A stretch of 39,829 bases of DNA from a virus. The stretch is taken from positions 1 through 39,829 of IMG/VR virus record IMGVR_UViG_3300032296_001283, one strand, 5' to 3'. The notes under the pieces are model-generated. The model had not been told where the DNA came from. It saw only the letters and a program-made list of their open reading frames with translations, and ran no database searches. Shown piece by piece: positions 8,830 to 28,263 of the stretch. How positions within the stretch are numbered: position 1 is the stretch's first letter; every line of letters starts with the position of its first letter. The position numbers and the translations under genes were made by a program.

Positions 8830-9148
8830 TTCCCGAGCCAAAGGCTGCCGTGGCGAACGAATGTGGCGTGATGTTCTCCGTGAGGAGGGCTTCACCGCCC
8901 GTCGAGGCCAACAGTATGCAGGCGGAACAGATTCCCCTGATGTCCTGTGCGAGGAGCTTAAGAACCTTCATATGGAAGTGAAGTTTGTCGATAAGCTCAA
9001 CTTGGAAAAGGCTTGCGAGCAGGCCCAGCGTGACGCTAAGAAGTCATGGATTGTTGCTCACAAGCGCAATCACGGTGACTGGAAGGTGACCATGAACGCT
9101 GCGACATTCTTTGCTCTTTTGCGAGAGGGCATGGAAGGCCTGAAATGA
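8819..9148 (+). CDS. PD-(D/E)XK nuclease, Holliday-junction-resolvase-like
   Basis: This 109-residue protein has Arg/Lys-rich residues 6-14, then GGTDSPDV with Asp41 and MEVKF with Glu53 and Lys55, forming the D...ExK catalytic arrangement of small archaeal-type (Hjc-like) resolvases and related phage nucleases. Conserved basic segments (RRGQQY, HKRN) would contact DNA. A likely job is resolving branched replication intermediates before packaging. It is translationally coupled on both sides: 11 nt overlap upstream, and ATGA at its stop. Confidence 0.75.
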   Translation: MPINSRAKGCRGERMWRDVLREEGFTARRGQQYAGGTDSPDVLCEELKNLHMEVKFVDKLNLEKACEQAQRDAKKSWIVAHKRNHGDWKVTMNAATFFALLREGMEGLK

Positions 9149-9231
9149 TTTGGCGCATGTTACGCAGGGAGATCCTGCGGAGGGCATTTGTGTGCCTAAG
9201 GAAACACGCCAGCCCACAAACCGATCTGTAG
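9145..9231 (+). CDS. Possible 28-aa peptide overlapping the nuclease stop
   Basis: An ATGA overlap opens a 28-codon frame (MIWRMLRREILRRAF...) that is strongly basic and amphipathic. A perfect hairpin, CGCAGG-GAGAT-CCTGCG, lies inside it at 9163-9179, so the stretch could equally be untranslated leader for the gene at 9317. Nothing else is recognised between 9232 and 9284. Confidence 0.2.
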   Translation: MIWRMLRREILRRAFVCLRKHASPQTDL

Positions 9232-9284
9232 GTTCCGACGACTCTGTAACTAGGTCGCTTGAAGAAATCGGAGAGCAGACAGGG

Positions 9285-9301
9285 GTGCGCCTGTAACGCA
9301 C
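9285..9301 (+). promoter_or_regulatory. Leader hairpin GTGCG/CGCAC (copy 1)
   Basis: GTGCG and CGCAC pair perfectly around a 7-nt loop, 15 nt before the ATG at 9317 and inside the shared context CAGGGGTGCG...AACGCACAAC. The same stem recurs before the next gene (9493-9512) with a different loop, so it is probably a leader regulatory or RNA-processing element. Confidence 0.45.
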
Positions 9302-9316
9302 AACTTATAAAAATAT

Positions 9317-9475
9317 ATGACAACAAAACAAATAACAGAAATTGTGCAGCGCAGAATTACATCACTCAACAAGCTGTTGAGCGAGAAGGAAATCACAGCT
9401 TCAGAATATGTTGAAATGGCTCACTGTGTGCTTGAATATTGGGTGAGCAAAATTCGCGACATTAAAAGCCGTTAA
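9317..9475 (+). CDS. Small helical protein, unknown (52 aa)
   Basis: The product MTTKQITEIVQRRITSLNKL... is a predicted two-helix protein with Leu/Ile heptads and a basic end (KIRDIKSR). I do not recognise the family. The start has no Shine-Dalgarno and follows an A/T-rich leader (TATAAAAATAT) and a GTGCG/CGCAC hairpin. It stands as its own unit between two copies of that hairpin. Confidence 0.55.
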   Translation: MTTKQITEIVQRRITSLNKLLSEKEITASEYVEMAHCVLEYWVSKIRDIKSR

Positions 9476-9492
9476 TTTACATGATGGCAGGG

Positions 9493-9512
9493 GTGCGGCT
9501 GCGGCAACGCAC
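9493..9512 (+). promoter_or_regulatory. Leader hairpin GTGCG/CGCAC (copy 2)
   Basis: Second copy of the stem at 9285-9301, here with a 10-nt loop, in the matching context CAGGGGTGCG...CAACGCACAAC, 21 nt before the ATG at 9534. The stem and flanks are conserved while the loops differ. Confidence 0.45.
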
Positions 9513-11368: not shown

Positions 11369-11660
11369 CGTCACCGGATATGGTGACTTGGAGCCCTCTG
11401 GAATCGTCAGCCGCAGTCACGGCCACCTCATGCAGGTGGATGTAATCGACGGAGTACCGATCATGGTTGCAGAATTTGCTGGAGTTTCCAACCTGCCTGA
11501 GCCAAAACGAGGAGTGATTTACATCGTGCCAACGCACGTTCGTGAAGCACTGCCAGACCGAAGTGACTTAGCGTCACCAAGTAAACTGATCCGCAACAGT
11601 GTCGGGCACGTCATCGGGTGCGGAGCATTGCAAGTCAACAAATCCTACAAAGTAAAATGA
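11334..11660 (+). CDS. Conserved phage protein of the MKFINLTPH type
   Basis: This 108-residue protein opens MKFINLTPHKINV, has a central VDGVPI-like strand region, and ends with YIVPTHVREALPDRSDLASP and GHVIGCGAL. That layout is recurrent in small proteins of actinobacterial and other phages, with no known function. It is the first gene of the cassette lying within the helicase, and its ATG sits in the helicase frame's overrun. It ends in an ATGA overlap with the nuclease gene. Confidence 0.75.
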   Translation: MKFINLTPHKINVTGYGDLEPSGIVSRSHGHLMQVDVIDGVPIMVAEFAGVSNLPEPKRGVIYIVPTHVREALPDRSDLASPSKLIRNSVGHVIGCGALQVNKSYKVK

Positions 11661-12439
11661 AACGAGAACTAATTCAAAATCTAGAGATGGCCGAGTACAG
11701 AAAGCTGCCCGGTTTGTCCAAGCATCAGCTCGATGCCTTTGGCGTGTGTCCCAAGTACTACCAGTGGCGTGGAGGACAGGAGTTCAAGCCAACCCGCGAG
11801 ATGGAGATTGGCACCTGCATTCACTCACTCCTGCTGGAGGGGCGCGTGGATTATGTGCAGGCACCGGAGATCAACCGCCGAACCAACGCTGGCAAGGCTG
11901 AATGGGAGGCTTTCTGCTACGACAATCAAGGTAAGTTCGTCATGAACGCTGAGGAGGTTGCGCGTATCGAGGGTGCGACTGAAGCTGCCCAGCCGCTCAT
12001 AAACATGATCACCGCAAAGAAGATCATCGAGGGCTCGATGTTCTGGGAGCGCGGCGGGTTGCAGTGCAAGGGCAGGCCGGATCTCATCACCGAAATCAAG
12101 GGAAAAGCAGCAATCGTTGACCTAAAGACCACTAGCGACATCCTGCGGTTTGACTCCAAGTTTTTTGGCCTGAAGTATGACAGGCAGGCGGCGTGGTACG
12201 CTTACGGTCTCAAACAGATTCAAGGCTTGGATGATGTGGACTTCTACTTCTTGGTTGTGGACACCGAGGAGCCACACCTTGCACAGTGGGTTAAACCAGA
12301 CGAGGCAGTACTGCAAAACGCAAACCTCAAGCTCGACGAGCTGGTCGCGAATCTCAAGCACTGTCAGGAACTGGACGCTTGGCCGGGGTTGCCGATCATG
12401 AAAACCATCACACTCAAGTCATGGCAGGTTGGATCATAA
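11657..12439 (+). CDS. PD-(D/E)XK nuclease, exonuclease VIII/DUF3799-like
   Basis: The 260-residue product opens with LSKHQLDAFGVCPKYYQW, a RecB/Cas4/RecE-type N-terminal signature, followed by MEIGTCIHSLLLE. The catalytic set is GRPD (Asp142), VDLK (Asp155, Lys157) and QAAWY (Gln177, Tyr181), matching the D...DxK...QxxxY order of RecE-like nucleases. It probably processes dsDNA ends for recombination, perhaps with a host or phage annealing protein that I do not see here. The ATG at 11657 overlaps the previous stop. It lies inside the split helicase. Confidence 0.85.
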   Translation: MKRELIQNLEMAEYRKLPGLSKHQLDAFGVCPKYYQWRGGQEFKPTREMEIGTCIHSLLLEGRVDYVQAPEINRRTNAGKAEWEAFCYDNQGKFVMNAEEVARIEGATEAAQPLINMITAKKIIEGSMFWERGGLQCKGRPDLITEIKGKAAIVDLKTTSDILRFDSKFFGLKYDRQAAWYAYGLKQIQGLDDVDFYFLVVDTEEPHLAQWVKPDEAVLQNANLKLDELVANLKHCQELDAWPGLPIMKTITLKSWQVGS

Positions 12440-26578: not shown

Positions 26579-27637
26579 ATGGCAATTCTTACTGAACCTA
26601 ATCTTAGTGGCCGTGGTAAACGCGAAGATCTTGCTGACATGATCAGCATGGTTGACGCAAAAGACACGCCTTTTACGTCTATGGCCCGTAAGGGCAGCAA
26701 GCCCGGAAACATGTATTTCCGTTGGCAGGCAGACAGCAATCCTGCACCCAAAGTTGGTGGTACTGTTGACGGCACCGATGTGACGTCCAACCAGTATGTC
26801 AACTGGGATGTGGGCTATCGTGCGGAACTTGCGAACTACGCGCAGGTCTTCCGTATGGATCCTGTCCGTGTGTCTAAACTTTCTACTGACATTGCCCAAG
26901 TGGCAGGTGTCCGTGATGAGTTGGCATACAACGTCAGCAAGTCCATCCTTCAGTGCAAGCGTTCGATTGAGACGACTCTCTGCTCGAACCAAACTGCACA
27001 GCAGGACAACGGATCTGTTCCTTACCTCACGGCAGGGATTCAGACTTGGATCAGCAACGCTGGTACTGGCACGCCTACTCCCGGCGACATTCCTTCACAG
27101 TTTCGCACTCCTACGGATTCGATCCTGACTGGCGCGTCCAGCGGGTTGACCGATACGGCTGTGCAGGGTCTGCTCAAGAGCATCTACAATCAGACTGGTC
27201 AGTATCGCTCCTATGATGCGATTGTTGGCACGGATCTGAAGCGTGCTTTCACGAGCCTCCTTGGCACTACCGCTCTCACCACTACCAGCACTGCTGGCGT
27301 ATTGGGCGCAGGCGCAACCAAGGTGCAGACCTTCCAGCGTGATGCTTCTGCCGAGGCTTACATCCAGTCGGTCGATGTGTTTCAAGGTGACTTTGGCACT
27401 GTAAAATTGCATCCCACTGTGTTTCTCGGGACGATCTCTGGTGGAAACTGGACGGTCACCCCGTACAAAGGTCTTGTCCTGAACATGGACTTGATTGAAG
27501 TCCGTTACGGTGGAAACGTCGCTGCGGTACAGGCACTGCCTGACTTCGGCGCTGGTGCTGCTCGCCTCGTTGAAGCGGTTTGCGGTCTGGTTGTCGGGAA
27601 CCCGTTGGGTCTTGGCAAGTTTGACTTCAGCTCGTAG
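26579..27637 (+). CDS. Major capsid protein, SU10/DUF5309-like
   Basis: The 352-residue protein opens MAILTEPNLSGRGKREDLAD and DTPFTSMARKGSKPGNMYF. It has central NYAQVFRMDPVRVSKLS and ends PLGLGKFDFSS. The TPFTS...KxGxxxxxxFxWQ start and the later APxGTxxxxxxxxL-like layout match the DUF5309 / SU10 capsid family, an HK97-type fold. It follows the scaffold gene. The leader CTTATTTAGTTT before ATG lacks Shine-Dalgarno despite the high expression expected. A strongly structured intergenic region follows its stop. Confidence 0.85.
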   Translation: MAILTEPNLSGRGKREDLADMISMVDAKDTPFTSMARKGSKPGNMYFRWQADSNPAPKVGGTVDGTDVTSNQYVNWDVGYRAELANYAQVFRMDPVRVSKLSTDIAQVAGVRDELAYNVSKSILQCKRSIETTLCSNQTAQQDNGSVPYLTAGIQTWISNAGTGTPTPGDIPSQFRTPTDSILTGASSGLTDTAVQGLLKSIYNQTGQYRSYDAIVGTDLKRAFTSLLGTTALTTTSTAGVLGAGATKVQTFQRDASAEAYIQSVDVFQGDFGTVKLHPTVFLGTISGGNWTVTPYKGLVLNMDLIEVRYGGNVAAVQALPDFGAGAARLVEAVCGLVVGNPLGLGKFDFSS

Positions 27638-27915
27638 GCTTGATTGGTGACACCTACCTAGTGGCGTGACTAGCTGGAGAGACAGCCTCGTCGGCAACGC
27701 GACATGAAGCGTTGTGGTGAACGCACACCGGAAGTGGCGTGACACTCTGGAGAGACAGAGAAATTTAGCTCGCCTACCATGTGTAGGAGGAGTAACAAGG
27801 TCACTTGTGGCCTTAGCCTTGCGACACCTGCCATTCTGGATAGCTCAGAGTGCATGGACTGGGATTTCTCAGTCGAAGAGTGGTGTGACATCTGGGAGAG
27901 ATACCAGCCACTTTT
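27638..27915 (+). ncRNA. Candidate structured RNA after the capsid gene
   Basis: This 278-nt gap lacks a convincing gene but is packed with hairpins. Three copies of AGTGGYGTGAC start at 27660, 27733 and 27879 (spacing 73 and 146 nt). Each is followed by a hairpin with a GAGAGA-type loop: GCTG/CAGC (27673-27686), CTCTG/CAGAG (27745-27760), and CTGG/CCAG with loop GAGAGATA (27892-27907). The stems differ but still pair. Between them: GCAACGC/GCGTTGT (~27694-27715), GGTG/CACC (27716-27729), CCTAC/GTAGG (27773-27787), ACAAG/CTTGT (27795-27808), ATTCTG/CAGAGT (27833-27851) and GACTG/CAGTC (27857-27874). The third unit is further closed by AGTGG/CCACT and TTTT just before the next ATG. Roles could be 3'-end protection of capsid mRNA, termination/attenuation, or a free RNA. 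Confidence 0.6.
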
Positions 27916-28263
27916 ATGCTCAATATTGACCCTAGTTTAATCCCTGCAATGGAAGCCGAGTTTCGGCGTGGATGGCAAATGAGACGAGTGCGTGCTGAAG
28001 TGCAGGCCAAACAGGCTGCGAAGTTTACTCAGCAACGCCACAAGTCAGTTGAAGGACTAGGCCAAAAGATGGGCAGCATTCCCGGTGATGCTTATCACTT
28101 CTGGGGCCATAAACTTGGTTATCAATGCTGGGAAGACAAAAATTTCTTGAAAGAATTTTGGCGTGATAACCCTCAGTGCAAAGTAAACTCTGGCGGCACA
28201 AAGGAAATTAGTGTAGGCTGGGTTCCGTCTACCAACTTTAGATCCCGCACTGTCTATCAATGA
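27916..28263 (+). CDS. Putative head-completion protein (115 aa)
   Basis: MLNIDPSLIPAMEAEFRRGW... has a basic helical N-terminus and a C-terminal part, YHFWGHKLGYQCWEDKNFLK, resembling small podoviral proteins encoded after the capsid. The ATG follows the third hairpin of the structured region by only 3 nt, so folding could hide its start. Coupled by ATGA to the next gene. Confidence 0.6.
   Translation: MLNIDPSLIPAMEAEFRRGWQMRRVRAEVQAKQAAKFTQQRHKSVEGLGQKMGSIPGDAYHFWGHKLGYQCWEDKNFLKEFWRDNPQCKVNSGGTKEISVGWVPSTNFRSRTVYQ

Follow-up and report, generated by a model that had tools for sequence, protein, structure and literature searches.

An apparently uncatalogued, compact RNA motif repeated behind a phage capsid gene and widespread in mobile DNA

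The array behind the capsid gene and its counterparts in relatives

What occupies the 278 nt between the major capsid protein gene and the next gene of a 39.8-kb virus record, the whole of which we refer to as the window? In this gap, we found one plus-strand RNA motif repeated three times in tandem (Table 1). The initial annotation had noted a hairpin after each of the boxes reading AGTGGYGTGAC at 27660, 27733 and 27879. Both the boxes and the stems (GCTG/CAGC, CTCTG/CAGAG and CTGG/CCAG, with loops GAGAGA, GAGAGA and GAGAGATA) are present as described, and the only three occurrences of the 10-mer GTGGYGTGAC in the 39.8 kb are those in the gap. What this description of the array had missed is a further hairpin 5' of each box, the loop of which pairs with the box. 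In full, a unit starts with hairpin S1. Base pairing between the S1 loop (GACACCU or AACGCA) and the box (GGYGU, then GAC) gives helix S2, so that S1 and S2 together make up an H-type pseudoknot; after it comes hairpin S3, with a GAGAGA-type loop. Between the S1 hairpin and the box lies an insert of 0 to ~100 nt, often consisting of hairpins, and the GATAGCT hairpin that was formerly suspected to be a decayed fourth unit turned out to be such an insert within unit 3, common to relatives.

Folding, proposed at the outset as a check, yielded z-scores of -1.95 and -1.91 on the two strands, barely beyond shuffled sequences and equal on both strands, and hence energy alone could not reveal the structure, which became visible by comparison. 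A covariance model built mostly from relatives (R2) recovered the three units and no other convincing unit in the window. The gap of the window contains no tRNA and no Rfam match, and a search of annotated phage DNA with the whole region returned no match.

Table 1. Coordinates of the array and its flanking genes in the window
Feature	Position	Strand	Details
Major capsid protein gene (352 aa)	26579-27637	+	phrog_1328 major head protein, E 1e-37
Unit 1	27646-27686	+	R2 hit 27643-27692, 45.1 bits, E 4.6e-11
Unit 1 S1	27646-27648/27656-27658	+	GGT/ACC; loop GACACCT 27649-27655
Unit 1 S2	27650-27654 with 27663-27667	+	ACACC/GGCGT, one A-C mismatch
Unit 1 GAC	27668-27670	+	
Unit 1 S3	27673-27676/27683-27686	+	loop GAGAGA 27677-27682
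Accessory hairpin 5' of unit 2	27695-27714	+	CAACGC/GCGTTG; folding
Unit 2	27716-27760	+	R2 hit 27718-27765, 38.9 bits, E 2.2e-9
Unit 2 S1	27716-27719/27726-27729	+	GGTG/CACC; loop AACGCA 27720-27725
Unit 2 S2	27721-27724 with 27737-27740	+	ACGC/GCGT
Unit 2 GAC	27741-27743	+	
Unit 2 S3	27745-27749/27756-27760	+	loop GAGAGA 27750-27755
Spacer between units 2 and 3	27761-27819	+	two further hairpins; folding
Unit 3	27821-27907	+	R2 hit 27817-27913, 25.5 bits, E 8.3e-6
Unit 3 S1	27821-27822/27830-27831	+	GC/GC; loop GACACCT 27823-27829
Unit 3 insert hairpin (GATAGCT)	27832-27852	+	folding
Unit 3 insert hairpin	27857-27874	+	folding
Unit 3 S2	27824-27828 with 27882-27886	+	ACACC/GGTGT
Unit 3 GAC	27887-27889	+	
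Unit 3 S3	27892-27895/27904-27907	+	loop GAGAGATA
Gene after the array (115 aa, MLNIDPSLIPAMEAEF...)	27916-28263	+	no PHROG match

With the capsid protein as query, we obtained 80 IMG/VR loci (L001-L062 at 86-98% identity and L063-L080 at 77%), and nearly all loci that reach beyond the capsid gene carry units of the same kind between the capsid stop and the next gene. R2 was applied to 48 distinct relatives, every one of which has units, and recognized 90 units in total, all of them on the plus strand and directly 3' of the capsid gene, and none away from the capsid gap over those 302 kb. The gaps hold mostly 1-4 units, and in the majority of the capsid-clade gaps ~8-12 nt separate the end of the last unit from the start codon that follows; as gap length varies from 73 to 393 nt and no frame is kept, we rejected a protein-coding origin. 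Unit interiors fall into ~40 cassettes that recur in varying order: the cassette with the accessory hairpin (m2) is present in 10 of 47 distinct gaps, and the window's spacer between units 2 and 3 recurs in L019 and L022. Because the cassettes are shuffled, the 73-nt period emphasized in the initial annotation is incidental, being the property of one cassette, with spacings in relatives of 56 to 145 nt. The A-C mismatch in S2 of unit 1 is absent in relatives with GGTGT.

Furthermore, several relatives have another site, of one or two units, before replication genes (L353:1766-1818, L354:1691-1745, L355:1655-1709 and L356:332-491); it corresponds to 9148-9317 of the window, where the window itself has no unit. 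We also observed a second structured module, GACCYGTCAAGGCTAG..GC.AAAGC..CCTCAAACCG..GGGTC, between units in the capsid gaps of L006, L052, L065, L072, L074, L117 and L121; it had no Rfam match.

Covariation and strand of the motif

When 49 units were aligned, nine pairs varied on both sides, and the covariation score was 0.274, compared to 0.094 for shuffles and at most 0.080 for slid controls, S2 and S3 pairing having been required when these units were picked. The test was repeated with pairing not used as a selection criterion and S1 never selected. Upon this repetition, the inner S1 pairs were formed in 125 and 132 of 137 units, significantly above the shuffle means of 116 and 112.5 (maxima 121 and 120), and the third pair was borderline (58/137; shuffle 43.7, maximum 59). 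The S1 stems vary among GGC/GCC, CGC/GCG, AGC/GCT, GGT/ACC, AGT/ACT, CCC/GGG, GGTG/CACC and others. For S3, units picked by sequence alone (n = 136) were paired at positions 2-5 in 131, 122, 114 and 90 cases, compared to shuffle means of 58.7, 81.6, 57.6 and 54.6 (maximum 77 at position 2), with six pair types occurring at position 2. As G-U pairs outnumber A-C by 28 to 4 at positions 2-3, the plus strand is the RNA.

S2 3' strands that depart from GGYGT have a matching 5' loop (ACACA/TGTGT, ACGAC/GTCGT, ACGTC/GACGT and ACGG/CCGT) in units found without any S2 criterion. In this set, a further match in L154 seems to be spurious, and pairing covers just 4 bp in L040 and L209. In two plasmids, S2 reads UCACC/GGUGA, and the plasmid variants keep the helices with GAC and the GAGAGA loop lost; the closing S2 pair is A-C in some units. 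Overall, covariation in the aligned units supports all three helices, S1, S2 and S3, and with them the earlier proposal of a structured plus-strand RNA with compensatory changes. Missing covariation in relatives, or conservation of a protein frame, had been named beforehand as grounds for abandoning that proposal; both were looked for and the motif survived, as the helices covary and no frame is conserved.

Spread in mobile DNA, tRNA neighbors and remote relatives

The motif is not specific to capsid genes, judging by where its sequence recurs. Its core pattern gave more than 120 matches in viral contigs among the matches listed, and 66 matches in GTDB genomes compared to roughly 7 estimated by chance, most of these GTDB matches with the 5' box also present. 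Whole-genome searches found 1-9 copies in 27 of 28 GTDB genomes with a match, a copy number on which we rejected a REP-like high-copy repeat. The taxa include Marinobacter, Microbulbifer, Cobetia, Xenorhabdus, Alcanivoracaceae and other gammaproteobacteria, a Chloroflexota isolate (Bellilinea), and metagenome-assembled genomes labelled Sphingomonas, Micavibrio, cyanobacteria and Bacilli. Within one class (274 genomes around the Marinobacter genome G010, strict filters), the motif was present in two genomes, one of them G010 itself, indicating a sporadic distribution.

The contexts of the units are equally varied. A unit lies behind the capsid gene in Stenotrophomonas phage phiSHP3 and right behind it in L169, while a Morganella phage/plasmid has one 5' of a holin or HNH gene and terminase, and other phages have units before or after capsid, portal, protease, terminase, primase and methyltransferase genes. 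Conjugation operons (including the end of one operon), bacterial chromosomes and prophages carry the motif as well, and an IS1595 transposase gene adjoins one annotated unit. No neighboring protein gene was shared across unrelated phages, plasmids and chromosomes. With so many unrelated contexts, the original idea that the motif serves the capsid mRNA, the gene after it or the particle is not supported. In Marinobacter (L204, L207, L221 and L296), the unit is embedded in a conserved RNA that extends over ~100 nt, with an IS1595 transposase gene alongside in several strains, and in plasmid and gammaproteobacterial loci (L298, L300, L297, L274, L235 and L266), an extra conserved hairpin, ..CGCT-CGCC..GGCC.AGCG.., lies directly 5'.

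We observed a striking strand bias among tRNA neighbors. For 210 distinct units, 52 tRNAs within 400 nt were on the same strand (28 upstream and 24 downstream) and 0 on the opposite strand, with about 3 per bin by chance, where a tRNA close to two units was entered twice and clustering of tRNAs and gaps inflates the figure. Some tRNA genes are only 9-16 nt from a unit. One 51.9-kb viral contig (L099) contains an array of ~20 tRNA genes with one unit inside.

BLAST searches with the consensus core also led to an E. coli prophage leader, found in 446 of 5426 complete genomes (at least 80% coverage), and to SPN1S-, D6- and SopranoGao-like phages. At these enterobacterial sites, S1 is kept (TTGAT/ATCAA, AGGAT/ATCCT or GCGAT/ATCGT) and encloses a CACC loop able to pair with GGTG, the hairpin loop is GAAGAG or GAAAGA, and R2 gave only 6-10 bits on the sites tested. 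We treat these sites as probable relatives; a promoter-like sequence precedes them. The same E. coli prophage (446 genomes) and phage groups share a long structured leader with boxes GGCAYATGGCACATGTGCCG and GGTAGCCGGAATGTGCAAGCC (L303:2900-3700, L306:2880-3460, L307:2720-3370 and L308:2870-3250); a tRNA or tRNA-like sequence lies 3' of this leader in SPN1S and the E. coli prophage and 5' of it in D6.

Known RNA families and possible functions

Rfam 15 yielded no family match at the gathering score, in line with the initial annotation, which had recognized no known family, and no convincing match on any unit with permissive E-values. The motif is not described in the open-access literature that we searched, outside of which large phage RNA-structure surveys may lie. 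Relative to these sources, we are apparently dealing with an uncatalogued RNA motif that is compact, strongly supported and widespread in mobile DNA, with phages and plasmids among the elements between which it has been copied and shuffled in cassette form.

Judged by topology, the closest known system is the putRNA of HK022. Put RNA binds the beta' zinc-binding domain of RNA polymerase and, with no protein factor dedicated to it, suppresses both pausing and termination (PMC9378689). We read putL from the HK022 genome, numbered as in PMC9378689, and checked its pairs letter by letter: A3-G7 pair with C15-U19 (5 bp) around a 7-nt loop (8-14), C10-G14 pair with C30-G34, next to A9.G35, and stem II runs from 36. 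The order of elements is the same, namely a loop hairpin, a pseudoknot between the loop and a downstream strand, and at once a second hairpin. Both RNAs have a 7-nt hairpin loop, are phage-borne, occur in more than one copy per genome and have no dedicated protein, and both have a variable linker (10 nt in putL and 4 nt in putR, by our own reading). However, S1 of the motif usually has 2-5 bp compared to 5-6 in put, S3 is short with a GAGAGA-type loop whereas stem II of put is long with internal mismatches, the GAC linker is absent from put, and put sites follow PL and PR whereas motif sites lie in many places. The equivalent of A9.G35 is A-U in the motif, and put G35U retains 70% of antitermination (PMC9378689). 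R2 gave no match at putL or putR, and BLAST with putL found annotated put sites and similar enterobacterial phage sites and none of the units. A loose descriptor of the put architecture was satisfied by 38-87% of random sequences and was rejected as undiscriminating; since the topology is so easily met by chance, sharing it is weak evidence of kinship. Homology by way of a 10-nt string common to phiSHP3 and putL (AACCATGCGT) was rejected as well, the string being out of structural register. With no covariance-model match, the motif was not filed as put.

The helix order also resembles that of the pistol ribozyme (P1 hairpin, pseudoknot and P3), but the conserved letters differ, and the motif has no conserved strand 3' of its last hairpin and no Rfam match. 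Pistol, hammerhead and HDV-like ribozymes are all represented in Rfam, and their models gave no match to the units in our scans. ToxI repeats are near-identical 34-40 nt units 5' of a toxin gene. These type III antitoxins are tandem RNA pseudoknots, as is the motif, whose units, by contrast, differ widely inside; no ToxI-type toxin gene was recognized among the genes scanned. The lambda nut site (boxA and boxB) likewise offers a short purine-loop hairpin in phage leaders, with a pentaloop in boxB compared to the hexaloop of the motif, near which no boxA was seen. CsrA sites, attC sites, 16S mimicry and ToxIN repeats fitted poorly in an informal comparison and were dropped. Theta (HDV-like) ribozymes process phage tRNAs and lie near tRNA genes (PMC10879173). 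They share with the motif a location in phages beside tRNA genes, but there is no HDV-like Rfam match, and the covariation gives no sign of a nested double pseudoknot.

The motif probably acts on bacterial transcription or RNA machinery. We tentatively favor, at somewhat less than an even chance, a cis-acting element of the nascent RNA that would modify transcription in a put-like way. The RNA would fold while emerging from RNA polymerase, and the folded unit would bind the polymerase and suppress downstream pausing and termination, either intrinsic or Rho-dependent, to the benefit of untranslated stretches, long late operons and tRNA arrays, with several copies acting additively. Sites in several bacterial phyla suggest a target conserved in all bacteria, or none, and as the window's ORFs of at least 500 aa (smaller ORFs were scanned in part) did not match a phage RNA polymerase, the host polymerase is the likely target. 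The spread across phyla without a partner protein, the co-direction with untranslated RNA genes and the tandem copies fit such put-like action. On the other side, terminators were not in excess 3' of the motif (12/169 compared to 8/169 upstream), the window showed no terminator or promoter excess, the array lies inside a late operon and apparently not directly behind a promoter, and A-C pairs occur in S2 of some units, unit 1 of the window among them.

Units that immediately follow the capsid gene, as they do in the clade of the window, in phiSHP3 and in L169, would also suit protection or processing of mRNA 3' ends, in which hairpins block exonucleases or are cut by RNases and stabilize the capsid mRNA in excess over the downstream genes; the copy number of 1-4 would then mean more protection from more units, and tRNA neighbors need processing too. 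We nevertheless consider it unlikely, because the unpaired letters and the pseudoknot conserved across unrelated genomes exceed the needs of a protective hairpin and many copies lie 5', not 3', of highly expressed genes. A new self-cleaving ribozyme with the pistol-like helix order appears improbable: while the small conserved core, the independence of the host and the tRNA genes at 9-16 nt point to one, no Rfam ribozyme family matches, and it would be unusual for a catalytic core to keep its helices in plasmid variants without GAC and the GAGAGA loop, or to lack conservation 3' of S3.

No more probable than a ribozyme is a site for a phage- or host-encoded RNA-binding protein (nut/boxB-like or a repressor) that would recognize S3. 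Unrelated phages, plasmids and chromosomes lack a common neighboring protein gene and no boxA was seen, which argues against such a site despite the purine-rich hairpin loop beside a conserved single strand and the repetition of sites. Finally, the short distance from the last unit to the next start in most capsid-clade gaps, and the many other copies just 5' of a start, could suggest a riboswitch-like 5'-UTR element governing translation of the next gene or early transcription, a reading that we find very improbable given that the next genes are unrelated, that some copies lie before tRNAs or hundreds of nucleotides from genes, and that tandem copies are ill-suited to a simple switch.

Returning to put-like action on the polymerase, it is conceivable, if doubtful, that the motif represents a pan-bacterial family of factor-free polymerase-modifying RNAs in phages, plasmids and prophages, and that the put RNAs of a few lambdoid phages are the one branch of it studied so far. 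Cassettes would then be exchanged by mobile DNA to tune the transcription of late operons and tRNA arrays, and a remote relative would be present in one prophage leader of ~8% of complete E. coli genomes. If the polymerase is indeed the target, phages and plasmids would be making general use of factor-free RNA antitermination, so far known from a few lambdoid phages; should the motif instead be a ribozyme or processing site, it would define a new class in the vicinity of phage tRNAs. The cassette array provides a natural series of 1-4 copies.

Elsewhere in the window, a leader hairpin (GGGGTGCG..CGCAC) occurs in two copies (9282-9301 and 9490-9512; 0.01 expected by chance), with an ATG ~15-25 nt 3' of each, and may represent another leader element of early genes. 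The early region also contains a PAPS-reductase-domain gene (278-1120) and a DUF3799 PD-(D/E)XK nuclease gene (11618-12439).
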